64,000 bases of DNA, from NCBI GenBank assembly GCA_017860615.1, contig JAGDMU010000005.1:1-64000 (forward strand), given 5' to 3'. The notes beneath the pieces were generated by a model. That model saw nothing but the letters and a program-made list of their open reading frames with translations, made no database searches and was not told where the DNA came from. Shown here in pieces: positions 9,669 to 22,327 of this stretch; positions within the stretch are counted from its first letter, which is position 1, and every line of letters starts with the position of its first letter. A program made the translations under genes and the position numbers. Source of the stretch: Pseudomonadota bacterium. GTDB lineage: Bacteria > Campylobacterota > Campylobacteria > Campylobacterales > Sulfurospirillaceae.

Positions 9669-10424
9669 TTACAAAAGCAAAAGGCAGCAATCAGCCATAG
9701 ACAACCAAGGTAAGCAAAATTTCATAATGGTACCACTGGAAGTATGGGTCGTTTCTTCTATCTTGGAATTGGCGATTTTATAGCCTTCGCCTTTAACCGT
9801 TTCGATGAAATGAAAAGGCAGTAGTTTAGCCCTTAGCTGTCGCACTAATGACCGAATCCGCTCTTCACTGACTGCTTCATCTTGGTAGACATAGTATTCA
9901 ATTTCATGAGAAGAGACAATATGATGTGATTTCATAAAGAGTAATTTAAGCAATAATGCCTCTTTTCTCCCTAAAACAACCTCTTCTTCATGATTCATAA
10001 ATTTAGCATGTTTAAAATCAAAATAGATGTCTTTTGTAACAAAGAAGGTATCATCATTCCAAATATCGCATAATTTGTAAATTCTAAATGCAATCTCTTG
10101 TGGAGAAAAATTTTTCACAATGATGTCTTCATAGGAGAGATAATAAAGCGTTTTAAAATTTTTAGGATCAAAATTTGATTCGATAATAAGTAAGATGGGA
10201 ACATCCACACCATTTTCTCTTAGGTAATGCATAATAGAAGGGTCTATGGGATTTTTAAGATTGAGAATAAAAAGAGCATAAGAAGATAATGACGAAACAT
10301 CTTCTTCAAAAATGGCTTCTTCTTTTTGTACCTTTTTGATTTTCATTTTTAAGCGTAACTGGTTTAAATACGTATCAATACTATCGGCTAACTCTTCATC
10401 TGGTTCAAGAAGAAAAACTTTCAC
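9669..10424 (-). CDS. OmpR-like DNA-binding protein with non-phosphorylatable receiver, copy 2
   Basis: 251 residues: receiver-like domain (1-120) and winged helix (about 130-220, EERIRSLVRQLRAKL and ETVKGEGYKI). The phosphoacceptor Asp is Asn (FILNLKNP, residue 55), while a Lys near residue 104 is kept (IIVKNFS). It is a paralogue of the regulator at 12275, sharing the FILNLKNP and KLC-IWND segments and the winged helix. Each lies downstream of genes for the flavoprotein system, suggesting dedicated control. Oddly, it carries about 30 extra C-terminal residues ending in a hydrophobic, Cys-rich tail (PWLSMADCCLLLL) not seen in the paralogue. Confidence 0.8.
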   Translation of the reverse strand: MKVFLLEPDEELADSIDTYLNQLRLKMKIKKVQKEEAIFEEDVSSLSSYALFILNLKNPIDPSIMHYLRENGVDVPILLIIESNFDPKNFKTLYYLSYEDIIVKNFSPQEIAFRIYKLCDIWNDDTFFVTKDIYFDFKHAKFMNHEEEVVLGRKEALLLKLLFMKSHHIVSSHEIEYYVYQDEAVSEERIRSLVRQLRAKLLPFHFIETVKGEGYKIANSKIEETTHTSSGTIMKFCLPWLSMADCCLLLL

Positions 10425-10494
10425 TTTACTCCTTTTTCGTGATTTGTTCGTCAGTTTATCATCTTGAAACTGAAACTCCTATAATAATGTAAGT

Positions 10495-10527
10495 ACAGGG
10501 CTTTAAAAGATACTTGTAAAGCCCTGT
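10495..10527 (-). terminator. Terminator hairpin after flavoprotein copy 2
   Basis: ACAGGGCTTTA (10495-10505) pairs with TAAAGCCCTGT (10517-10527), an 11-bp stem with an 11-nt loop, 13 bp past the flavoprotein stop. On the minus strand the sequence after it is only moderately T-rich (ACTTACATTATTA). Confidence 0.65.
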
Positions 10528-10539
10528 TTATATTTAAAA

Positions 10540-12105
10540 TTAGATCGTTTCGCCTGCGATCATACCAAATGTTAAACAATCGGTTACTGCAACCGTTCCT
10601 AAACGGCTTGCACCGTGCGTTCCACCTGTGACTTCACCCGCAGCAAAAAGACCCGGAATTGGTTTGCCTGTATTTGCGGAGATAACTTGTGCTTTTGTAT
10701 TGATATGTAAACCACCCATGGTATGGTGAGGTTTTGGCACCAAGCGAATCGCGTAAAATGGTCCTTTCATCTCAATCGCTTCTTTACCTTTTACATCTTT
10801 AAGCGTTTGTTTTTTGAACTGATCTTCAACCCCATTTTTAGCATCTTCGTTGTACTTTTTGATGGTCTCTTTTAGTGCATCTAGCGGAATTTTGTAGTTG
10901 GCTGCAAGCGCGTCAAGTGTGTCGAATTTTTTCATAACGCCACCTTGAAGACCTTTTTCAATTTGAGGGTAAATTTGCGTATCAAACGTATTGTATGTGC
11001 CAATGGCTACGGGGTAAGCTTTTGGAGCTTCTCTTAAGATGACATACTCAGCGTCCGCTCTTGTTTTACGATCTGCCATTTCGTTCATAAATCGCTTACC
11101 ATTTCTAACATCAACGGCGACACCAAATTTAAACAAGCCTTGTTGTGTTAAAAGTGGTGCTACACCAAAACCCCTCTCATCTGGACTTGCCCATGGTCCT
11201 TGTTGAATCCAGTCAATATGCACGGGAAGTGCACCGATTTGGAATGCTTTTAAAAGTGCTCCTGCGGTTGCGCCATCATGGTTGGTCGCATCCATATCTT
11301 CTACAAGGCGTGGATCTTGTATTTTTCTAAAGATTTTATCCATAGAAAAACCACCACTGGCTAAGATAACACCTTTTTTAGCACGGTAAACTTTTTTCTC
11401 ACCTGTTTTGTTTTCCACATCATCGCTCAGAAGTTTGACATCAAAACGGTAGTTGATACGAGCTGTGACACCTAAAACACTCAGACCATCATTGCTCATC
11501 ACAAAATCATCCATTTTGGTACGTGTCATAATTTTACAACCAGGAAGTTTTTCGACAAATTCATGCATCGGTTTAATAACGCCTGATCCACTCATATTGT
11601 CCGTAACAAGTGTTCTTGGAGCGGAGTGACCACCAAACCATGCAGGTTTAACATCTTGCCATTTTGCACCACATTTGATAGAAAAATCAAGTGCATCTTG
11701 TGATCGTTTAACAATCGTCTCAAGTAATTCAACATGGTTGATACCAAGACCTGCTTTTAAACAATCTTTGATAAATTGCTCACCAGAATCTTCAATACCA
11801 TATTTTTTTTGCCATGAACTGTTTGGAATAGCCATACCACCACCGTTGATAACAGAGTTACCGCCAATTCGTCCCATTTTCTCTAAGATAAGCACTTTAT
11901 AGCCTCTCTCTGCCGCTTTTGCCGCAGCTGCAAGCCCCGCAAATCCTGTACCAATAACGATAACATCGTACTCTTCATCAAACTTAACATCTTTTTCGGT
12001 TGGTGCGGCTGCCATTGCATTGCTTGCACTAAGCATTGCTAAACCTGCTGTACCAAGAGCGCCTAACTTCAGAGCGTCACGTCTCGACATTGACTCTTTA
12101 TTCAT
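10540..12105 (-). CDS. Tat-exported FAD reductase of the fumarate reductase/flavocytochrome c family, copy 2
   Basis: 521 residues with a Tat signal (MSRRDALKLG, cleavage after AMAA), an FAD-binding motif (VIVIGTGFAGLAAAAKAAERG) and the family active-site regions: GKRFMNEMADRKTRAD with the likely proton-donor Arg, PHHTMGG, and GGTHGASRLG. The segment where fumarate reductases carry a substrate-binding His reads IQQGPWASP, so fumarate may not be the substrate; urocanate-, methacrylate- or acrylate-type substrates are candidates. There is no haem domain, so electrons must come from separate cytochromes such as those at 14574-15640. It is a near copy of the protein at 15643, with the same length. 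Confidence 0.85.
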   Translation of the reverse strand: MNKESMSRRDALKLGALGTAGLAMLSASNAMAAAPTEKDVKFDEEYDVIVIGTGFAGLAAAAKAAERGYKVLILEKMGRIGGNSVINGGGMAIPNSSWQKKYGIEDSGEQFIKDCLKAGLGINHVELLETIVKRSQDALDFSIKCGAKWQDVKPAWFGGHSAPRTLVTDNMSGSGVIKPMHEFVEKLPGCKIMTRTKMDDFVMSNDGLSVLGVTARINYRFDVKLLSDDVENKTGEKKVYRAKKGVILASGGFSMDKIFRKIQDPRLVEDMDATNHDGATAGALLKAFQIGALPVHIDWIQQGPWASPDERGFGVAPLLTQQGLFKFGVAVDVRNGKRFMNEMADRKTRADAEYVILREAPKAYPVAIGTYNTFDTQIYPQIEKGLQGGVMKKFDTLDALAANYKIPLDALKETIKKYNEDAKNGVEDQFKKQTLKDVKGKEAIEMKGPFYAIRLVPKPHHTMGGLHINTKAQVISANTGKPIPGLFAAGEVTGGTHGASRLGTVAVTDCLTFGMIAGETI

Positions 12106-12150
12106 TGTATAACTCCTTAAAATAAGATGATATTATTTACTTCAACTTAA

Positions 12151-12180
12151 ATTATATCAACCAGCTGTGATATTTATTGT
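12151..12180 (-). promoter_or_regulatory. Promoter of flavoprotein copy 2 with shared box
   Basis: On the minus strand the box ACAnTAAATATCACAG (12180-12165) is followed after 8 nt by TATAAT (12156-12151), about 45 bp upstream of the ATG. The same box and spacing occur before the other flavoprotein gene at 17250-17279. The box occupies the -35 position, so it is probably an activator site. Confidence 0.6.
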
Positions 12181-12274
12181 TAGTTTTTTATTTAAGAATT
12201 ATTTAAGAAATTTACTTTTTTGTGAGGTGTGAAGCGAATGAGAGATGACTCTTTTTGAATGTTTTAGCACTTTG

Positions 12275-12940
12275 TTATTTCACCAAATCATTTACAATTT
12301 GATACCCTTTTCCATGGAATGTTCTAATCAAATCGTAAGGAAGCTTATCTCTAAGTTGTTTTACAAGTGCTCGAATTCTTTCTTGACTGACCACCTCATT
12401 TTGATACACAAAAGAGATTATTTCAGTACACGTCGTGACACCATGAAATTTTAAAAACAGACATTTAAGAAGTAATGCTTCTTTTTTACCAAGAAGTATA
12501 TGTTTGTCATTAAAGATAAACATCCTTTTTCGAAAATCAAAACATATTCCTTTGCCCAAATAAAAAATATTATCATTCCAAATGTGACATAATTTATAAA
12601 TTCTATAAACGATCTCTTCGACTGAAAAATTTTTAATAATAATATCGTTATAGGAGAAAGAAGAGAGTGTTTGAAATATTTGTGGGGATAGTGTAGGTTC
12701 TAATATCAATAGAACAGGTGCTAGTTTTCCATTTGTTCTGATAAAGTCTAATATTTTGGTATCTGCTGGATTTTTAAGGTTAAGAATAAAAAGAGAATAC
12801 TCTTCCAAGAAGAGTTCTTCATCAAAAATATCATGTTCATTTTGTGTTTTTTTGACATCTATTTTTAAGCGACACTGATTAAGACAGATATCGATCTCAT
12901 TTTGTAAATTTAGATCAGGATCAAGAAAAAAAATCTTCAT
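12275..12940 (-). CDS. OmpR-like DNA-binding protein with non-phosphorylatable receiver, copy 1
   Basis: 221 residues with a receiver-like N-terminal half and a winged-helix C-terminal half (VSQERIRALVKQLRDKL, TFHGKGYQIV). Asn54 replaces the phosphoacceptor Asp (FILNLKNP); a Lys near residue 103 is kept (IIIKNFS). It is paralogous to the regulator at 9669 and sits between the porin and flavoprotein copy 2. No histidine kinase gene is adjacent, fitting a regulator that senses something other than phosphate. Its target could be the shared box before both flavoprotein genes; that is inference. Confidence 0.8.
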   Translation of the reverse strand: MKIFFLDPDLNLQNEIDICLNQCRLKIDVKKTQNEHDIFDEELFLEEYSLFILNLKNPADTKILDFIRTNGKLAPVLLILEPTLSPQIFQTLSSFSYNDIIIKNFSVEEIVYRIYKLCHIWNDNIFYLGKGICFDFRKRMFIFNDKHILLGKKEALLLKCLFLKFHGVTTCTEIISFVYQNEVVSQERIRALVKQLRDKLPYDLIRTFHGKGYQIVNDLVK

Positions 12941-13032
12941 TTTAACTCTTTTTTATTCTGCTTTGGATTACCCCGTCTTATCGTCGTCTTTTCACAGAAA
13001 CTTCGTTTTGAGCTTTACTTTCAAGGCGTATT

Positions 13033-13051
13033 CAGAGTTCTGCAAGAACTC
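13033..13051. repeat. Small inverted repeat between porin and regulator genes
   Basis: AGAGTTC (13033-13039) and GAACTCT (13045-13051) form a 7-bp stem with a 5-nt loop in the gap after the porin gene. No T tract follows on either strand, so it may be a weak terminator or an operator. Confidence 0.3.
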
Positions 13052-13108
13052 TATTAAAAGAGACTTCACACACACTAACGCTGCAAAGCCTCTTTCGTTT
13101 TCTAGCAA

Positions 13109-14458
13109 TTAGAATTTATAGTGAAGATAGAAACGTCCATAAAGGAAGTCATCATCATTACTTGTATTAGCCGCATTTGTTGTAGGATTATCATAAGTAC
13201 CATAACCTGCCCATAGACGTGTATGGAAGCCTTTTAACGCTCCAGTAAAGGCGTATTTGAGGTCGATGTTGATTTCATCCGCACCATCAAGGTTCATTCT
13301 TGTTGCAGCACTTGATCCACTGTTTAAGATACCTTCATCACTTTGGTCATAATGTGCGTATTTAAGACCTGCACTAAAGCCAGGAATGCCAAAGCCATAA
13401 ATCGCTTCAATAGAATAAGCATCTACACCTGCGAAGATAGCATTGTTAGTGAGCATATCGGTATACGCGATAGTATCAGGAACATGACCTAAAGTACCAG
13501 GGAAGTTTGCTTCATCATCCATTGTGGTATATGCGGCATTAAGTTTGACACCTGAAATTTCGGTTGCAACTTTAAAGCCATACAAACGTGCTTCATCACC
13601 ACCTGCTTCACTGCCAGGAGCAGGAGTCGCAAAAACTCTACTATCATAATCTGCCCCAGCATAGGTCATTGCTAAAGAGAGAGGATGACTGATCGGAAGT
13701 TTATACTCTGCTTGAAGGTAATATTGGTCATACCCACCAGTACCTACAAAAACGGGAGCATCATAAAATCGCTTATCTTCATTGGTTGTCATGTATTGAC
13801 CATCAAGGGTTAAGCCTGTAATGCTTGTATTTTTAAAGAAAACAGAATAGATACCTTTTTCTAAATGCATATCTTGTTGTGTTGCTGTATTTCTTGCATC
13901 ATCACCATAACGCATTTGCCAATCTTGAATATACATTAACTTAATCATCGTTTGAGGGATTTCATTGAAGGTTAAAATAGCCGCATCAAAAGAGTCTTCA
14001 AGGGCAAATGCTGAACTTGTCATAATAAGAGGTGTTTTAATTTTTTGGCGACCGATTGCAATATTTGATTTTAAGAAATTGTATTGAATATACGCTTCTG
14101 AAAGTAAGGTGGTACTGACAGAGTTACGCTCATCATCTTCAGTATTAGGTTGATATGCTCCAGCAGCATTATCACTTTTATGCCAGTCTAAGTCATGTGC
14201 AGCTTGGAAACCAAAGCCAAGTTTAAATCCTTGAAAACTATCGGTTACATAGCGCAATTCTGCTGCGATAGAGCCAACATTAACATTGTTTACAGGTGCT
14301 GTTTGGGTATCTGCGCTTGAGTGAGAACCAGCAGTATAAACAAATCTCAAGTCGCCGCTTACTTTACCGTTTTTAAACGCTTCTTCCAAAGTATCCGCTG
14401 CATAGGCAACGCTACTGAGTGTCATTAAGGCTACTAAGGATAATTTAACGAGTTTCAT
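13109..14458 (-). CDS. OprD/MOMP-like outer membrane porin
   Basis: 449 residues with a signal peptide (MKLVKLSLVALMTLSSVAYA) followed by DTLEEAFKNGKVSGDLRF, the usual start of campylobacterial OprD-type porins, and a C-terminal aromatic residue (RFYLHYKF) typical of beta-barrels. Alternating hydrophobic residues run through the protein. It probably admits substrates for the periplasmic reductases encoded on both sides. It follows the NapC-type gene by 115 bp, with a possible terminator between them, so it may have its own promoter. Substrate specificity cannot be read from the sequence. Confidence 0.82.
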   Translation of the reverse strand: MKLVKLSLVALMTLSSVAYAADTLEEAFKNGKVSGDLRFVYTAGSHSSADTQTAPVNNVNVGSIAAELRYVTDSFQGFKLGFGFQAAHDLDWHKSDNAAGAYQPNTEDDERNSVSTTLLSEAYIQYNFLKSNIAIGRQKIKTPLIMTSSAFALEDSFDAAILTFNEIPQTMIKLMYIQDWQMRYGDDARNTATQQDMHLEKGIYSVFFKNTSITGLTLDGQYMTTNEDKRFYDAPVFVGTGGYDQYYLQAEYKLPISHPLSLAMTYAGADYDSRVFATPAPGSEAGGDEARLYGFKVATEISGVKLNAAYTTMDDEANFPGTLGHVPDTIAYTDMLTNNAIFAGVDAYSIEAIYGFGIPGFSAGLKYAHYDQSDEGILNSGSSAATRMNLDGADEINIDLKYAFTGALKGFHTRLWAGYGTYDNPTTNAANTSNDDDFLYGRFYLHYKF

Positions 14459-14524
14459 CTTTCTTCCTTATCGTTATTTTAGAATCCATCTTGCGCATTA
14501 AATGCAAAAAAGATTTAAGTGTTT

Positions 14525-14560
14525 CTCCCGTTTGAAACATCCGCACGCTTAAAACGGGAG
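14525..14560 (-). terminator. Hairpin between NapC-type and porin genes
   Basis: CTCCCGTTT (14525-14533) pairs with AAACGGGAG (14552-14560) around an 18-nt loop, 13 bp beyond the NapC-type stop. The downstream minus-strand sequence (AAACACTTAAAT) is a poor T tract, so it may be a partial terminator or a processing site. Confidence 0.45.
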
Positions 14561-14573
14561 CTTTAATTTGCCC

Positions 14574-15209
14574 TTACTTTTTCAACTCTTCAGCTAATTT
14601 TTTCTCAGCCTCTTCTTTTTTCTTATCTAACTTACCTTTGTAATACTCATACTCAGGTTTGTAGTAATTGAGCATACTTCTAAGCCCTTTATGCCCTACT
14701 TCTACGTGACAGGAAGCACAGCTAATTTCTTTGGCTGTGTCTTTCAAGCTATCGTAATGCGCGTGCATTTTACGACCTTGCTCACTGATCGCTTCATTGG
14801 TTTTGTAGTTGGTATGACATCCCACACACGCTTCATCTTTGACAAAGTGTGCTCTGTTGGCACGATTTGCTTGCCAATCAATGGCATCAACATTACCAAA
14901 GAAGTGAATCGCTCCTTCTACAGCACCGTTTCTAGCTTTTGTTGCAATATACGCAAAAACATTATCATGAGGTAAGTGACAGGTTACACAGGTAACTTTA
15001 ATGCCTATTTTACCTGCCCCTCCATGAACGTCATTGTGATACGCTGCAACCATTGGTTTCATCTCATGACACACAACACAAAACTTATCATCGCTTGTTC
15101 GATGAAGACCTTCATAAAGAATCCATGAACTGAGTAACCCTACCAAAACACCTACTAAAACCGTAAGTAGCATGTTGTTTTTTATGATGAGAAATATTTT
15201 TTTGATCAT
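14574..15209 (-). CDS. NapC/NirT-family tetrahaem quinol dehydrogenase
   Basis: 211 residues: one N-terminal membrane helix (about 12-33) and four CxxCH haem sites (CVVCH, CVTCH, CVGCH, CASCH). The C-terminus is Lys/Glu-rich. The protein should oxidise menaquinol and pass electrons to the periplasmic tetrahaem cytochrome encoded just upstream. The ATG at 15209 overlaps the stop of that gene (ATGA), which favours it over an upstream start. Together with the genes at 15206 and 15643 it forms a three-gene unit like the Wolinella fccABC methacrylate reductase system, recalled from the literature. Confidence 0.88.
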   Translation of the reverse strand: MIKKIFLIIKNNMLLTVLVGVLVGLLSSWILYEGLHRTSDDKFCVVCHEMKPMVAAYHNDVHGGAGKIGIKVTCVTCHLPHDNVFAYIATKARNGAVEGAIHFFGNVDAIDWQANRANRAHFVKDEACVGCHTNYKTNEAISEQGRKMHAHYDSLKDTAKEISCASCHVEVGHKGLRSMLNYYKPEYEYYKGKLDKKKEEAEKKLAEELKK

Positions 15210-15640
15210 GGTGTCGGCCTCATCCAAAGTTTCACATCATTGCTGTGGCAACTTAAACACATATTATCCGACTTCTTATGTTCAAAGTGACACTCATCAC
15301 AATAAAGTTTAGGACCATCGTGAATAGAGTTGTGTGGATTTGTATGTAAGTTATCCATAAATTTCAGTCTATCTGCCAAATACTGTTTTGTTTTATGACA
15401 CGATAAACACCCTTTATCGTCGATCGCTTTAAAATTTTCTGGGTCATCCCCTTGTCCTTCATGGCAGTCAACACATTTAAATGACAACTTTTCATGATGA
15501 GGCTTAAGAGTAAATTTTTCTTTAAGCTCAGGCGTAATCTTTAGCTGAGGAGAAGAAGCGTTCACTTCACTCCCCACCAAAGACATCACTCCAAGAATGA
15601 GAAAAAACCCTAATGCTAAAAGAGTTTTTTTGCTACGCAT
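15206..15640 (-). CDS. Periplasmic tetrahaem cytochrome c (flavocytochrome c haem subunit)
   Basis: 144 residues with a signal peptide (MRSKKTLLALGFFLILGVMS) and four CxxCH sites (CVDCH, CLSCH, CDECH, CLSCH) spaced as in the haem domain of Shewanella fumarate reductase. It most likely shuttles electrons from the NapC-type protein to the flavoprotein encoded immediately upstream. The ATG at 15640 lies 2 bp after the flavoprotein stop, so translation is coupled; an in-frame start at 15673 would overlap the flavoprotein and lacks a signal peptide start. Confidence 0.88.
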   Translation of the reverse strand: MRSKKTLLALGFFLILGVMSLVGSEVNASSPQLKITPELKEKFTLKPHHEKLSFKCVDCHEGQGDDPENFKAIDDKGCLSCHKTKQYLADRLKFMDNLHTNPHNSIHDGPKLYCDECHFEHKKSDNMCLSCHSNDVKLWMRPTP

Positions 15641-15642
15641 GA

Positions 15643-17208
15643 TTAGATGTTTTCTCCTGCAACAAAGCCACATACTAAACAGTCAGCAATCGCACAACTA
15701 CCTAAACGGCTTGCACCGTGTGTTCCACCTGTGACTTCACCCGCGGCAAATAAACCTGCGATTGGTTTGTTGGTATTTGCTGAGATAACTTGCGCTTTTG
15801 TGTTAATTTTTACACCACCCATAGTATGGTGAGGTTTTGGTACTGTACGAATTGCATAGAAAGGTCCTTTCATTTCAATACATTCTTTACCTTTCATATC
15901 TTTCAGCGTCTGTTTTTTGAACTGATCTTCAACACCGTTTTTAGCATCTTCATTGTATTTTGCAATGGTTTCTTTTAATGCCGCTGCTGGGATTTTGTAG
16001 TTTGCAGCAAGTGCGTCAAGGGTATCGAATTTTTTCATTACGCCACCTTGAAGACCTTTTTCAATCGCTGCATAGATTTGCTCATCAAACGTATTGTAAG
16101 TACCAATTGCAACTGGGTATGCTTTTGGATCTTCTCTTAAGATAACATACTGTGCGTCTGCTCTTGTTTTTCTGTCTGCCATTTCATTCATGAAACGTTT
16201 ACCGTTTCTAATATCAACACAAACACCTTTTACAAATAAACCTTGTTGTGTAAGAAGTGGCGCTACACCAAAGCCTCTCTCATCTGGGCTTGCCCATGGA
16301 CCTTCTTGAATCCAGCTAATGTGTACAGGAAGTGCTCCAATTTGGAAAGCTTTTAAAAGTGCTCCCGCTGTTGCACCATCATGATTTGTTGCATCCATAT
16401 CTGGAGCCATACGTGGGTCTTGAATTTTTCTGTACTCTTTATCCATTGCAAAACCACCGCTGGCTAAGATAACACCTTTTTTCGCACGGTAAACTTTTTT
16501 CTCGCCTGATTTGTTTTCAATGTCATCACTGTAAAGTTTGTTGTCAAAACGGTAGTTGATACGCGCAGTTACACCAATAACAGTTGTACCATCGTTGCTC
16601 ATAACAAAGTCATCCATTTTCGCACGGGTTACAAGTTTACAACCTGGGAGTTTCTCTACAAATGCTGCCATTGGTTGAATAATCGCAGAACCGCTCATAT
16701 TTTCTGTAACAATTGTTCTAGCTACTGAGTGGCCACCAAAATGGGTTGGTTTTTTACCTGTTTGGTATTTTGCGCCACATTTTACGGTAAAGTCAAATAC
16801 TTCTTGTGCACGATCAGCGATGAGTTCAAGCATCTCAACGTGGTTAATACCAAGTCCCGCTTTTAAAGCATCTTTAATGAAAAGTGCTTTAGAGTCTTCG
16901 ATACCAAATGCTTTTTGGTCTTTATTCATAGGAACGGCAAATGCACCACCGTTGATAACAGAGTTACCACCCACACGACCCATTTTCTCTAAGATAAGAA
17001 CTTTATAGCCTCTCTCTGCTGCTTTAGCTGCTGCTGCCAAACCTGCAAAACCTGAACCAATAACGATAACATCGTACTCTTCATCAAACTTAACATCTTT
17101 TTCAGTTGGTGCTGCTGCCATTGCTTGGCTTGCACTTAACATTGCGGCACCTGCTCCAACAAAACCTAACTTCAGAGCGTCCCTTCTGGACATTTTCTCT
17201 TGACTCAT
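15643..17208 (-). CDS. Tat-exported FAD reductase of the fumarate reductase/flavocytochrome c family, copy 1
   Basis: 521 residues with a Tat signal (MSRRDALKLG), an FAD fold (VIVIGSGFAGLAAAAKAAERG), the active-site Arg region (KRFMNEMADRKTRAD), PHHTMGG and GGTHGASRLG. It is the first gene of the unit with the tetrahaem and NapC-type cytochromes, so it is the catalytic subunit of a periplasmic reductase that ends a menaquinol-fed chain. The region IQEGPWASP lacks the substrate His of fumarate reductase; an alternative unsaturated acid is likelier. It differs from the copy at 10540 mainly in about 25 residues near position 90-140. Confidence 0.87.
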   Translation of the reverse strand: MSQEKMSRRDALKLGFVGAGAAMLSASQAMAAAPTEKDVKFDEEYDVIVIGSGFAGLAAAAKAAERGYKVLILEKMGRVGGNSVINGGAFAVPMNKDQKAFGIEDSKALFIKDALKAGLGINHVEMLELIADRAQEVFDFTVKCGAKYQTGKKPTHFGGHSVARTIVTENMSGSAIIQPMAAFVEKLPGCKLVTRAKMDDFVMSNDGTTVIGVTARINYRFDNKLYSDDIENKSGEKKVYRAKKGVILASGGFAMDKEYRKIQDPRMAPDMDATNHDGATAGALLKAFQIGALPVHISWIQEGPWASPDERGFGVAPLLTQQGLFVKGVCVDIRNGKRFMNEMADRKTRADAQYVILREDPKAYPVAIGTYNTFDEQIYAAIEKGLQGGVMKKFDTLDALAANYKIPAAALKETIAKYNEDAKNGVEDQFKKQTLKDMKGKECIEMKGPFYAIRTVPKPHHTMGGVKINTKAQVISANTNKPIAGLFAAGEVTGGTHGASRLGSCAIADCLVCGFVAGENI

Positions 17209-18972: not shown

Positions 18973-18990
18973 AGAAGTTAAAAGTTTAGC
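18973..18990 (+). repeat. 18-bp direct repeat left of integrase (candidate att site)
   Basis: AGAAGTTAAAAGTTTAGC occurs here and again at 20232-20249. The two copies bracket the integrase gene, and the similarity continues imperfectly for about 14 bp (GCCAACCCATATT versus TTCGCCCCCCTATT). This is the arrangement expected for attachment-site halves or an integrase cassette. Confidence 0.55.
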
Positions 18991-19024: not shown

Positions 19025-20140
19025 TTGTTAAAAAGTGTTAGAGTGTATAGCAAAGGTGGCAAGGTGTGCTTAGATTATCGACTTTTAGATGAATACCGAA
19101 AAGATGGCAAGGAGCGTATTCGTTTTAGTCTAAAGCTTGATGATACACCCTTAAACATGCAACGAACAGAGAGAGAAAAATATGCACTAGCACTGGAGCA
19201 TTTTCTCTCAAACAATGAAGTGAATGATGGTAACTACTCGATTGATGATATTGCCTTAAAAGCATTAAATGAAGATAGACACAATCGTGCAGAAGATACG
19301 CATAATGACTACATCCAAATCTACACCAAGTACATTAAACCCTACTTTGGGAATAAGCACTTGGCAGAGATCAAGGTAACTGACTTAAAGGCTTGGAAGA
19401 ACAACTTGATTGAATCTCACCAACTCAGCAAATCACGCTTCAATAAATACTATCGCACGTTTAACTTCATTTGGAACTATGCCCTTGTGAATGAAATGAT
19501 TGATAAAAATCCATTAGCACTTGTGGATAAAAAATCGAAACAGTTCAGCAAAAGCAAAAGTGATTCTTCCCAGAAGTATTACAGTAAAGATGAAGTGCAA
19601 CGTATCCTTGAACATGCCACAGGATGGTTTAAAGCGTTCCTCACATTATCATTCAATACAGGACTTAGAACGGGTGAGGCTCTAGCGTTACAATGGGGTG
19701 ATGTTGATTTCGAGAATAACACAATCACGATACAACGTAGCCAAAGGCATGGCAAATTGAAAGAGACAAAGACGAACATTGTCAATACTGTTTACATGCC
19801 CTCTCCTGTTAAAGAAGCCCTACAACTTCACAAGCAAACTGCAAAGAGTAACTTGTGGGTCTTTCCTAACGAGCAAACCTTACAACCATACTTCGAGTCT
19901 CGTCCTATCGTTAAAACGTATTTAAAGCCCCTTTTAGAGCGTTTAAACATACCTTACAAAACGCTATATGCAACACGTCACAGCTTTGCAAGTTCAGTTG
20001 TTGAGAATAATATGCCAATTACTCTTGCTCAAAAGTATTTAGGACATCAAAAGCTCTCTACTACGATGGACTTCTACGTTAAGAATGGCTTGATGGATGT
20101 TGCAAATATTGACAAGGGGATTGATCGATTGTTTGCGTAG
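19025..20140 (+). CDS. Tyrosine recombinase/phage-type integrase
   Basis: 371 residues: an arm-binding N-terminal domain, a SAM-like core-binding domain (about 95-170, RAEDTHNDYIQIYTKYIKPY) and a catalytic domain. Visible catalytic residues are Arg in NTGLRTGEALALQWGD, Lys in KLKETKT, Arg in YATRHSFASS, His in LGHQKLSTT and Tyr in TMDFYVK. The first His of the HxxR box is replaced by Tyr. The start appears to be TTG at 19025, because no ATG exists upstream before an in-frame TAG. It lies between the 18-bp repeats and likely moved the island; base composition is more AT-rich than the flanks. Confidence 0.9.
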   Translation: MLKSVRVYSKGGKVCLDYRLLDEYRKDGKERIRFSLKLDDTPLNMQRTEREKYALALEHFLSNNEVNDGNYSIDDIALKALNEDRHNRAEDTHNDYIQIYTKYIKPYFGNKHLAEIKVTDLKAWKNNLIESHQLSKSRFNKYYRTFNFIWNYALVNEMIDKNPLALVDKKSKQFSKSKSDSSQKYYSKDEVQRILEHATGWFKAFLTLSFNTGLRTGEALALQWGDVDFENNTITIQRSQRHGKLKETKTNIVNTVYMPSPVKEALQLHKQTAKSNLWVFPNEQTLQPYFESRPIVKTYLKPLLERLNIPYKTLYATRHSFASSVVENNMPITLAQKYLGHQKLSTTMDFYVKNGLMDVANIDKGIDRLFA

Positions 20141-20170
20141 GTAAGGTAGGGATTTTTTATTGGAAATGTT

Positions 20171-20208
20171 AACCCGTTGACCCGTTGGATGTAGAGTTCT
20201 GACGGGTT
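20171..20208. repeat. Inverted repeat downstream of integrase
   Basis: AACCCGT (20171-20177) and ACGGGTT (20202-20208) are complementary, and ACCCGTTG is repeated in tandem at 20172 and 20180. No T tract follows. It could be a weak terminator or a recombinase arm site. Confidence 0.35.
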
Positions 20209-20231
20209 GTGATGAAGCAAAGTGTAAATTT

Positions 20232-20249
20232 AGAAGTTAAAAGTTTAGC
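20232..20249 (+). repeat. 18-bp direct repeat right of integrase (candidate att site)
   Basis: This is the second exact copy of AGAAGTTAAAAGTTTAGC, 92 bp after the integrase stop. The unit from repeat to repeat is about 1.26 kb and contains only the integrase. Confidence 0.55.
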
Positions 20250-20297
20250 TTCGCCCCCCTATTATATAAAAATTTCAATACCGAATATAAACTGTGT

Positions 20298-20303
20298 TAT
20301 AAT
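20298..20303 (+). promoter_or_regulatory. -10 element for the reverse transcriptase unit
   Basis: A consensus TATAAT at 20298-20303 predicts a start near 20309-20311, at the first base of the complementary GAGCCGA arm. A -35 hexamer is not clear, which is common in Campylobacterota. Confidence 0.5.
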
Positions 20304-20309
20304 AGCTAA

Positions 20310-20388
20310 GAGCCGAGTGAAATAATTTGCAAGTGTGAGTCACATTTGGTACAGAGTAAATTAGTTGTTATTCCTATTTCTTCGGCTT
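20310..20388 (+). ncRNA. Candidate retron-type structured leader (msr-like)
   Basis: GAGCCGA (20310-20316) pairs with TCGGCTT (20382-20388), including one G-T pair, like the a1/a2 arms that close retron RNAs. Inside is a 7-bp hairpin, AAGTGTG (20331-20337), loop AGT, CACATTT (20341-20347), enclosed by possible AATTT/AAATT pairing. It directly follows a TATAAT and ends 24 nt before the reverse transcriptase ATG. At about 80 nt it is short for an msr-msd and shows no long msd hairpin, so the assignment is tentative. Confidence 0.35.
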
Positions 20389-20412
20389 AACATACTCCTG
20401 AAAAAGTTTAAA

Positions 20413-22080
20413 ATGAATCAAGTTGTAGATTTTAGTGGACTTTCAAACCTGCGTTCTATTGCTAGTACATTTAATACAAAGTTAGAATTTTTAGAATCTA
20501 TCCTCAAATCACCCACAAGAAGTGAATTTTATCAAAAAATGTTTATCCTTAAAAAAAATGGTAAAGGATATCGACTTGTATATAAGGCAATAAATAAGTC
20601 ATTAAGCTTATTTCATAAAAATTTATCAACTTCTCTCCAAAAATTAGAAAAAGAATTTGTACATGATTGTGCTTATGGTTTTGTCAAAGGAAAAAGTACA
20701 TTTGATAATGCGAAAATACATCTTAATCGACAAATTTTAGTTCAATTTGACATTGAAAACTTCTTTAAATCAATTAATTATGAAAATATCAAAAAAATAT
20801 TTTTTCAGCTTTGCAAGAATGACGATATAGCGTCCATTTTAACATCTTTAACGACAGTCAATACTTCTTTGGTTGAGGGTCTACATACAAGTCCTGTGTT
20901 AGCTAATCTATTTTTTTACGATTTGGATATACAGCTTTTCGAACTAGCACAAAAACATGATTGTCTTTATACCCGATATGCCGATGATATAACATTCTCG
21001 ACTAATTTCAAAGATATAAACGTAAAAAAACTAGAGAAAGAAGTGTCAGCGATATTAAAAGAATCTAACTTATCTCTAAATAATGAAAAAACTCGTATAT
21101 CAAAAAAAGGGCAACCACAATATGTTACTGGGCTAAGTGTATCCAATCCAGAGTTTCCAAGAATTCCAAGATTAATGAAGAAAAAAATCCGTCAAGAACT
21201 ATATTACATCAAAAAATATGGCGCTGAAGATCATTTTATGAACAAAAAAGAGAAATTGTATGATGGAATGCAACGCCTAAATGGCTGGATAATATATTGT
21301 CATGCAATTGAAAAGGAATTAGCAAAGAAGTTTCAAGATCAAATTCTCATGACAGATGCTTATACTGATATTCATGAATACAACAAAAGACTAAGAAAGA
21401 AAGAAAAAAGAAAAGAAGAACTTCATCTATACTTTGATGAGACGCTATATGAAAATTATTTTGGCATGTCTTGTGTTCTCATTCAAGATGAAAACCACCA
21501 AGATATTTCAAATGATTTAAATACTTTTTATGATCAACTGAGTGGAGACCAGTTGATCCCTAAGAAAGGAAGAATTTTTCATTACTGCGAAGACAGCCAT
21601 GATGTCAGAGGACAAATTGTTGATAGGCTTAGAAAATGTGATTTTCAGGCTTATATAGTTTTCTCAAAACTCGAAACCAATTCTTATACCAAAGATGATT
21701 ATTTAAAAATATTTTATAAAGTTTTATTTGACCGAATTCATAAAAATTACGATTGTACTGTGCATATATATTATGAAGAAAATAATAAAATCAAGACAGC
21801 TGATATTGATGATCTAGTCGAGGATATAAAAGACAAATTGAATAATCAAACAAGTATGGTTATTTCAATAAATATTCAAAAAATAACAAAACAAAATCAC
21901 TTATCAGTTATCCCTGACTATGTTCTTGGCTTATTCAAAGATGCTTATCTTAAAAAAGAGCGAAAAGATTTTGAAATCAGATATTGTCAGAAACTATCAA
22001 ATAAAATTAGACTAGTGATTGATCTAGATACAAATAAGTATTATTCTAGACATCAAACGCTATCTTTGTCGAACGAATAA
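20413..22080 (+). CDS. Retron-type reverse transcriptase fused to a DUF3800-like domain
   Basis: 555 residues from the ATG at 20413; a TTG at 20365 would run through the structured leader. Residues about 50-310 are a reverse transcriptase: FDIENFFKSI (motif A), GLHTSPVLANLFF, and RYADDITFS with the catalytic YADD. Two retron hallmarks are present: NAKIH (NAxxH) and VTG in PQYVTGLSV. After a charged linker (KRLRKKEKRKEE), residues about 335-555 resemble DUF3800 (LHLYFDETLYENYFGMSCV near its start, IPDYVLGLFKDAYLKK near its end), an RNase H-fold domain known in type VII retrons. It is probably an anti-phage defence protein. The AT content is higher than in the flanks. Confidence 0.8.
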   Translation: MNQVVDFSGLSNLRSIASTFNTKLEFLESILKSPTRSEFYQKMFILKKNGKGYRLVYKAINKSLSLFHKNLSTSLQKLEKEFVHDCAYGFVKGKSTFDNAKIHLNRQILVQFDIENFFKSINYENIKKIFFQLCKNDDIASILTSLTTVNTSLVEGLHTSPVLANLFFYDLDIQLFELAQKHDCLYTRYADDITFSTNFKDINVKKLEKEVSAILKESNLSLNNEKTRISKKGQPQYVTGLSVSNPEFPRIPRLMKKKIRQELYYIKKYGAEDHFMNKKEKLYDGMQRLNGWIIYCHAIEKELAKKFQDQILMTDAYTDIHEYNKRLRKKEKRKEELHLYFDETLYENYFGMSCVLIQDENHQDISNDLNTFYDQLSGDQLIPKKGRIFHYCEDSHDVRGQIVDRLRKCDFQAYIVFSKLETNSYTKDDYLKIFYKVLFDRIHKNYDCTVHIYYEENNKIKTADIDDLVEDIKDKLNNQTSMVISINIQKITKQNHLSVIPDYVLGLFKDAYLKKERKDFEIRYCQKLSNKIRLVIDLDTNKYYSRHQTLSLSNE

Positions 22081-22119
22081 TATATTTAAACTTTTATTGA
22101 ATAAGACTATTACTTATTC

Positions 22120-22161
22120 TGAGCCAAAAGTGAGCCAAATTGTGCCAAAAATGGGTCAAAA
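22120..22161 (+). repeat. Four phased 10-11 bp direct repeats next to tRNA-Met
   Basis: TGAGCCAAAAG, TGAGCCAAAT, TGTGCCAAAA and TGGGTCAAAA start at 22120, 22131, 22141 and 22152, one per helical turn. They lie about 90 bp from the 3' end of the tRNA gene. The spacing suggests cooperative protein binding, for example integrase arm sites. The same bases can also be read as the tail of a degenerate open frame. Confidence 0.45.
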
Positions 22162-22250: not shown

Positions 22251-22327
22251 TGGTGTCAAGAGAGGGACTCGAACCCTCGACCTCCGGCTTATGAGACCAG
22301 CGCTCTAACCAGCTGAGCTACCTTGAC
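22251..22327 (-). tRNA. tRNA-Met (anticodon CAU), CCA encoded
   Basis: The minus strand folds as a cloverleaf: acceptor GTCAAGG (22327-22321) with TCTTGAC, D-arm TAGCTCAGCTGGTTAGAGC, anticodon loop CTCATAA with CAT at 22293-22291, and T-arm GAGGG-TTCGAGT-CCCTC. Discriminator A and CCA are encoded (22254-22251). It could in principle be a CAU tRNA-Ile that needs lysidine, but the arm sequences suit elongator Met. It marks the right edge of the integrase/retron island. Confidence 0.92.

Follow-up and report, generated by a model that had tools for sequence, protein, structure and literature searches.

At positions 20413–22080 of the 64,000-nucleotide stretch of contig JAGDMU010000005.1 analysed here (hereafter the window; phylum Campylobacterota) lies a gene that, judged by its sequence, is a retron reverse transcriptase (RT) fused to a type VII effector domain, that is, a divergent member of the type VII-A1 retrons, an already classified kind. 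It is preceded by a conserved RNA of about 80 bases, remarkably short by retron standards, that is very likely the RNA partner of the retron; the gene itself is rare, is predicted to act in anti-phage defence and lies on a small mobile island. All coordinates are those of the window, and features lie on the forward strand unless stated otherwise.

The type VII gene and its relatives

The open reading frame (ORF) extends from an ATG at 20413 to a stop codon ending at 22080, the limits given for it by an earlier sequence-only reading of this DNA, and encodes 555 residues; it is intact, free of internal stop codons and present in a single copy in the genome. A TTG start at 20365 in the listed ORF was rejected, since it is part of the RNA element and the homologous proteins begin where the ATG places the start. 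The PADLOC model RT-DUF3800_VII-A1 (PDLC02958) matches residues 39–550 of the 555 with 324.6 bits and E=3e-97, far above chance.

The RT domain occupies residues 1–315 (20413–21357) and is supported by Pfam RVT_1 (8.6e-22), an AlphaFold model, retron RT structures as best matches and an RT tree. It holds the YADD polymerase active site (residues 189–192, 20977–20988) and the two motifs by which retrons are defined, NAxxH of region X and VTG of region Y (PMC6868368), here as NAKIH (residues 99–103, 20707–20721) and VTG (residues 238–240, 21124–21132). In the alignment of six fused homologues, N99, A100, H103, D191, D192, V238, T239 and G240 are invariant; the only key residue of these motifs to vary is the alanine of YADD, which is serine in one homologue. 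Could the enzyme not be a retron RT at all, but belong instead with the reverse transcriptases of group II introns or of the DRT/Abi families? There are weak profile matches to the group II RT (58.2 bits, cut-off 300) and Drt2 (36.9 bits, cut-off 390) models, but these lie far below cut-off, whereas the best retron models, with that of type VII-A1 first and other retron RT models next, score 160–325 bits. With both retron motifs present and with retron RTs, Eco2/Ec67 first, as the closest solved relatives by sequence and by fold, we regard this alternative as hardly credible; the retron lineage that had been read from the three motifs is borne out.

Retron Eco2 (Ec67), a type I-C RT-Toprim retron and the best solved structural match, likewise carries RT and C-terminal effector in one protein; unlike in the window, its effector is a Toprim and not a DUF3800 domain. 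Eco2 has a larger non-coding RNA with an msd hairpin.

Type VII is scarce in the genomes sampled. Among 397 genomes of the phylum, two score, namely that of the window and a second one (G395), and a sample of 385 alphaproteobacterial genomes yielded only the two type VII members already known there. Five fused homologues in Alphaproteobacteria bring the type VII loci compared here to seven, from two distant bacterial groups. Scans of IMG/VR for relatives returned none, and phage searches returned RT-only matches with no DUF3800_VII. In a tree of 18 RTs, a small sample, the seven type VII RTs form one clade (support 99/97) apart from types I-C, XII, XI-like, I-A and III-A, with the window and G395 as closest relatives (100/98); the tree holds retrons only and thus speaks to the clade rather than to placement relative to non-retron RTs. 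Other retron-like loci in the phylum include types I-C, XII and XI-like RTs. Campylobacterota had been described as little sampled, which overstates the case, for PADLOC's own survey singles out this phylum for its defence systems (PMC9252829).

The window protein shares with the type VII-A1 retrons (PDLC02957/PDLC02958) its domain order, the near full-length model match, its RT clade and the plan of its upstream RNA, and it differs from them in its divergence: it is 28–31% identical to the alphaproteobacterial members, and the PADLOC VII-A1 model gives it 324 bits versus 530–807 bits for them. It also resembles the type VII-A2 retrons, which have separate RT and DUF3800 genes, in matching their RT model (PDLC02953, 226.6 bits) and DUF3800_VII (PDLC02917), and its nearest relative, G395, has that separate-gene arrangement, but in the window RT and effector are fused. 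In G395 the two are neighbouring ORFs in different frames, the RT stopping at a TAA and the effector starting from the adjacent TTG, which may be a real split or a frameshift. As the split locus groups with the fused one, the state of fusion appears to have changed within the lineage. The earlier assignment of the RT-DUF3800 fusion to type VII thus agrees with both PADLOC models and with the clade. As a separate observation, on an Aminobacter plasmid (L013 965–2554) a second, different RT-domain gene stands directly upstream of the type VII-A1 gene; the window has no counterpart.

A compact RNA upstream of the gene

Folding of the gap between the integrase and RT genes brought out an RNA element, which had escaped the sequence-only reading and which was then seen to be common to the homologous loci. 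This candidate msr-msd is a compact non-coding RNA of about 80 nucleotides (20308–20388; minimum free energy −23.9 kcal/mol, z −4.22, 0/200 shuffles). Its fold is closed by a 14-bp stem with one bulged U, formed by an a1-like 5′ arm (20310–20324) and an a2-like 3′ arm (20375–20388), both backed by compensatory changes across homologues. Within this stem stands an msr-like hairpin (20330–20348) with an 8-bp stem and a 3-nucleotide AGU loop, and between a1 and the hairpin an unpaired G in the sequence UUUGC (20329) is, by analogy with retron architecture (PMC6868368), the candidate priming guanosine. The core hairpin is found in all seven loci, its loop being AGU across them (AGUU in G395). The only possible template in this fold is the 26-nucleotide segment between hairpin and a2 (20349–20374), which lacks a long msd hairpin; in the seven loci, this segment measures about 26–32 nucleotides, depending on where stem and hairpin are taken to end, so that the copied DNA would be at most about 30 nucleotides long if the usual retron rules hold.

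An element on the same plan, 77–87 nucleotides long, lies 15–25 nucleotides upstream of the RT start in 7/7 type VII loci. The seven fold with z-scores of −3.05 to −4.95 (0/200 dinucleotide shuffles each), scores that are somewhat optimistic because the stretches were picked for folding. The stems vary in sequence between loci but keep their pairing: in the six loci other than the window, standard pairs fill 97.2% of cells, both partners have changed in 12 of 18 pairs, and the covariation score was reached by 0/500 shuffles; once the window is added, pairing holds in 124 of 126 cells. The alignment (A7) was padded by hand with N to line up the stems, and these pair counts consequently lean towards structure. 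A covariance model (R1) built from the six loci with the window held out makes the search of the window free of that padding bias: it found one match up to E=10, at 20310–20388 on the right strand, with 19.8 bits and an E-value of 0.029 that holds for the 64-kb window. The same model had no match in retron loci of other types or in the sister islands described below, and Rfam, run on the whole window and at a relaxed threshold on 20100–20500, returned tRNA only.

Where does the RNA begin? An extended −10 promoter element (TGT-TATAAT, 20298–20303), identified by its consensus match (TATAAT, 6/6), precedes the stem by 6 nucleotides. A −10-like hexamer with 4–6 of 6 matches ends 5–9 nucleotides before the stem in 7/7 loci, and in the window and G395, the two loci from Campylobacterota, it reads TATAAT. 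This arrangement suggests a transcript that begins at the stem, with a 5′ end at about 20310. We discarded a longer upstream RNA that would include a hairpin at about 20174–20208, since that region precedes the promoter-like site and is common to sister integrase copies with other cargo.

Validated retrons have an msr of 1–3 hairpins of about 7–10 bp with loops of 3–10 nucleotides, an a1/a2 closing complementarity of 8–30 nucleotides, a priming G at the inner end of a1, mostly in TAGC but also in CAGA, CAGC, GAGC or ACGC, and an msd that folds into one long hairpin of 10–50 bp (PMC6868368). The closing stem falls within this range in the window, and 11–12 of 12 chosen pairs form in each of the other six loci. 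The msr-like hairpin falls within the range as well, and it resembles the binding core of RT-Eco1, an 8-bp hairpin with a three-base loop (PMC6868368). The msd hairpin was looked for and is absent from all seven loci, such that type VII RNA departs in this respect from the retron RNAs described. To the extent that we have seen, the compact RNA is undescribed; this is provisional, as published retron non-coding RNA predictions and PADLOC covariance models were not compared, and if a type VII RNA has already been described, the compact RNA would not be new and the locus would be a further retron of a known type.

The small copyable segment and the missing msd hairpin lend themselves to a different reading, one helped by the position of the element within the 5′ leader of the RT mRNA: the RNA could be a leader that controls RT expression, or could be bound by the RT yet never copied, with the template elsewhere or with synthesis untemplated, as in some DRT systems. 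We judge this unlikely. In its closing stem, RT-type hairpin and position, the element agrees with msr-msd RNAs; a promoter-like site where the stem begins leaves no space for a longer upstream RNA; and only a short stretch of the DNA between integrase and RT is non-homologous.

The C-terminal domain

The effector domain comprises residues 334–555 (21412–22077) and had been described as DUF3800-like, with a putative RNase H-fold nuclease activity. The first part of this description stands in one sense of the name and not in the other. The C-terminal 220 or so residues alone match PADLOC DUF3800_VII (PDLC02917) over nearly its full length (63.6 bits, E=4.2e-18). In contrast, Pfam DUF3800 (PF12686) has no match to the window protein at E<=1, nor at E<=10 to any of the seven type VII domains (the window's and six homologous ones), and NCBIfam finds no DUF3800 in the C-terminal domain. 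When the seven domains were compared by hhalign with 11 true DUF3800 proteins from Campylobacterota, the probability was 4%, and the sole piece aligned was the PDY/QLxD region. Given these negatives, 'DUF3800' is to be taken here as the name of the type VII effector family; kinship with Pfam DUF3800 is not demonstrated. There are likenesses to the Pfam family nonetheless, namely a DE near the first strand, an acidic residue on strand 4, a D in the last motif, and the RNase H fold with catalytic rearrangement that an AlphaFold study proposed for DUF3800 (PMC10910872).

As to the fold, AlphaFold models of the full-length protein and of the domain alone, made from four-row alignments, were good for the RT and poor for the C-terminus. 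The domain is modelled as strands 335–346 and 349–357, helices, strand 410–418, helix 427–444, strand 448–455, helix 462–479, strand 485–491 and helix 502–511, which in these low-confidence models is the order of an RNase H fold. With the domain-only model, Foldseek returned RNase HII as the best match (prob 0.98), followed by RuvC, IscB/IsrB, retroviral RT/RNase H, Argonaute and RNase H1, mixed with unrelated folds; a PDB sequence search with the domain profile found nothing. Four acidic residues that are invariant in all seven domains are candidate catalytic residues: D342–E343 on strand 1 (21436–21441), E455 at the end of strand 4 (21775–21777), and D502 at the start of the helix that follows strand 5 (PDYVLG, 21916–21918), the next-to-last helix. 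Taken together, element order, invariant residues and superfamily matches weakly suggest an RNase H-like nuclease fold, which is as far as the structure prediction carries the second part of the earlier description.

If the domain does have this fold, what would it cut? Other retrons need host RNase H1 (PMC8989520), and the domain might act in cis in its place, removing the template RNA once its own RT has turned it into an RNA:DNA hybrid, and so be a processing enzyme rather than, or besides, a toxin. RNase HII as best fold match speaks for this idea, as do the matches to RuvC, RNase H1 and retroviral RNase H chains. The active site of RNase HII also starts with an adjacent Asp-Glu pair. However, PADLOC treats the domain as an effector, the ORF list of the window holds no second effector gene beside the RT, and in G395 the domain is a separate ORF, as effectors are in other tripartite retrons. 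We consider a cis-acting RNase H improbable and favour a toxic effector. A bolder possibility, which we entertain at low confidence, is that type VII is a minimal branch in which an RNA of about 80 nucleotides, devoid of an msd hairpin, serves as template for no more than about 30 nucleotides of DNA and the RT's own RNase H-fold domain acts on the RNA:DNA product, uniting copying, template removal and toxin control in one polypeptide.

The island and the proposed defence

The gene is flanked by a tyrosine integrase gene (19025–20140; Pfam Phage_integrase 7.6e-24), of which sister genomes hold DNA copies, and by a tRNA-Met on the reverse strand (22251–22327; Rfam) at which tRNA fragments and islands recur across the genus. 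In sister genomes, the same tRNA-Met is accompanied by integrase DNA 85–88% identical to that of the window, and the cargo is different: it includes a HamB-like helicase (Hachiman-like), Septu PtuAB, a Fic protein and restriction-modification genes of types I and II. Homology of these islands to the window stops at 20208–20274 and resumes at 22114–22131, and the two breaks bracket the retron together with its RNA. From these comparisons, we take the tRNA-Met site to be a defence hotspot with exchangeable cargo, in keeping with the integrase island that the sequence-only reading had proposed. By its gene content, the host is probably a Sulfurospirillum-like campylobacterote.

Might the locus instead be what is left of an island that has become inactive and persists by chance? 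A left copy of the tRNA or attachment (att) site was not found in the window, and the island may thus no longer excise; the genome holds but one copy. The motifs of RT and effector are intact, however, as are the reading frame and the RNA structure, and we deem a remnant very unlikely.

Several further observations concern this site and its surroundings. A left tRNA fragment is present in G228, where islands are arrayed at the tRNA-Met (L049, L050); in this array the same integrase occurs three times, whole or as fragments, together with tRNA fragments and with Hachiman-like, Septu, type I restriction-modification, Fic and other genes. In the window, the integrase gene lies between the two identical copies of an 18-bp direct repeat, AGAAGTTAAAAGTTTAGC, at 18973–18990 and 20232–20249, and G228 has a similar copy after its integrase (L049 19182–19198); these are possibly integrase arm sites. 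In G271 (L048 992–2182), the same slot holds, beside an integrase fragment, a gene for a 396-residue protein that contains an HExxH motif (HEIAH) and is matched by no PADLOC model, a candidate for cargo of unknown kind. Farther off, at 9669–17208 of the window, two similar modules each encode a 521-residue Tat-signal flavin adenine dinucleotide (FAD) protein and an OmpR-like regulator, one of them with cytochrome-like genes; this looks like a duplicated flavocytochrome reductase system.

How might the retron work? In other retrons, a toxic effector is kept sequestered by RT, RNA and RT-DNA until a phage infects the cell (PMC12548924), and it is from this precedent that we infer a restrained nuclease. 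The type VII-A1 retron would be cargo of the small integrase island at tRNA-Met, and an RNA of about 80 nucleotides would be made from its own promoter and closed by the long a1/a2-like stem. The RT domain would bind the hairpin, prime from the guanosine beside it and copy the segment before a2 into a very short DNA. The complex of RT and RNA, perhaps with the DNA, would hold the fused DUF3800_VII domain, with D342/E343, E455 and D502, inactive until phage interference with RNA, DNA or RT frees the nuclease, which would then cut RNA or DNA such that growth of the infected cell stops. Gene, domains, family, RNA element with its conservation and island come from computation; reverse transcription of the compact RNA, the short product, nuclease activity, its silencing and the phage trigger are what the model adds.

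We lean, by a modest measure, towards this explanation as a whole, with the separate effector ORF of G395 counted in its favour. Several points weigh against it. In place of the 10–50-bp msd hairpin, the window offers a weak 6-bp pairing at most; the priming site is UUUGC rather than an exact TAGC-type motif; and the covariance score of the RNA is not significant at whole-genome scale, so that the case for the RNA draws on its position in addition to its score. The fold of the effector domain comes from models of low confidence (mean pLDDT, the predicted local distance difference test, 40.5), with a best Foldseek E-value of 3.4e-3. Furthermore, the literature searched yielded no experimental work on any type VII retron, and Rfam no match to type VII RNA.

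For those interested in the biology of retrons, the element provides an exact sequence of about 80 nucleotides, in seven species, to express together with the RT, making production of multicopy single-stranded DNA (msDNA) and effector activity directly testable. Should this RNA prove to be copied, its size would fall far below that of a classical retron RNA such as that of Mx162, with its 241-nucleotide transcript (PMC6868368), which would be relevant to the minimum of RNA that a retron requires and to compact tools for producing short DNAs inside cells. A retron RT with an RNase H-fold domain attached would, in turn, bear on the dependence of other retrons on host RNase H1.
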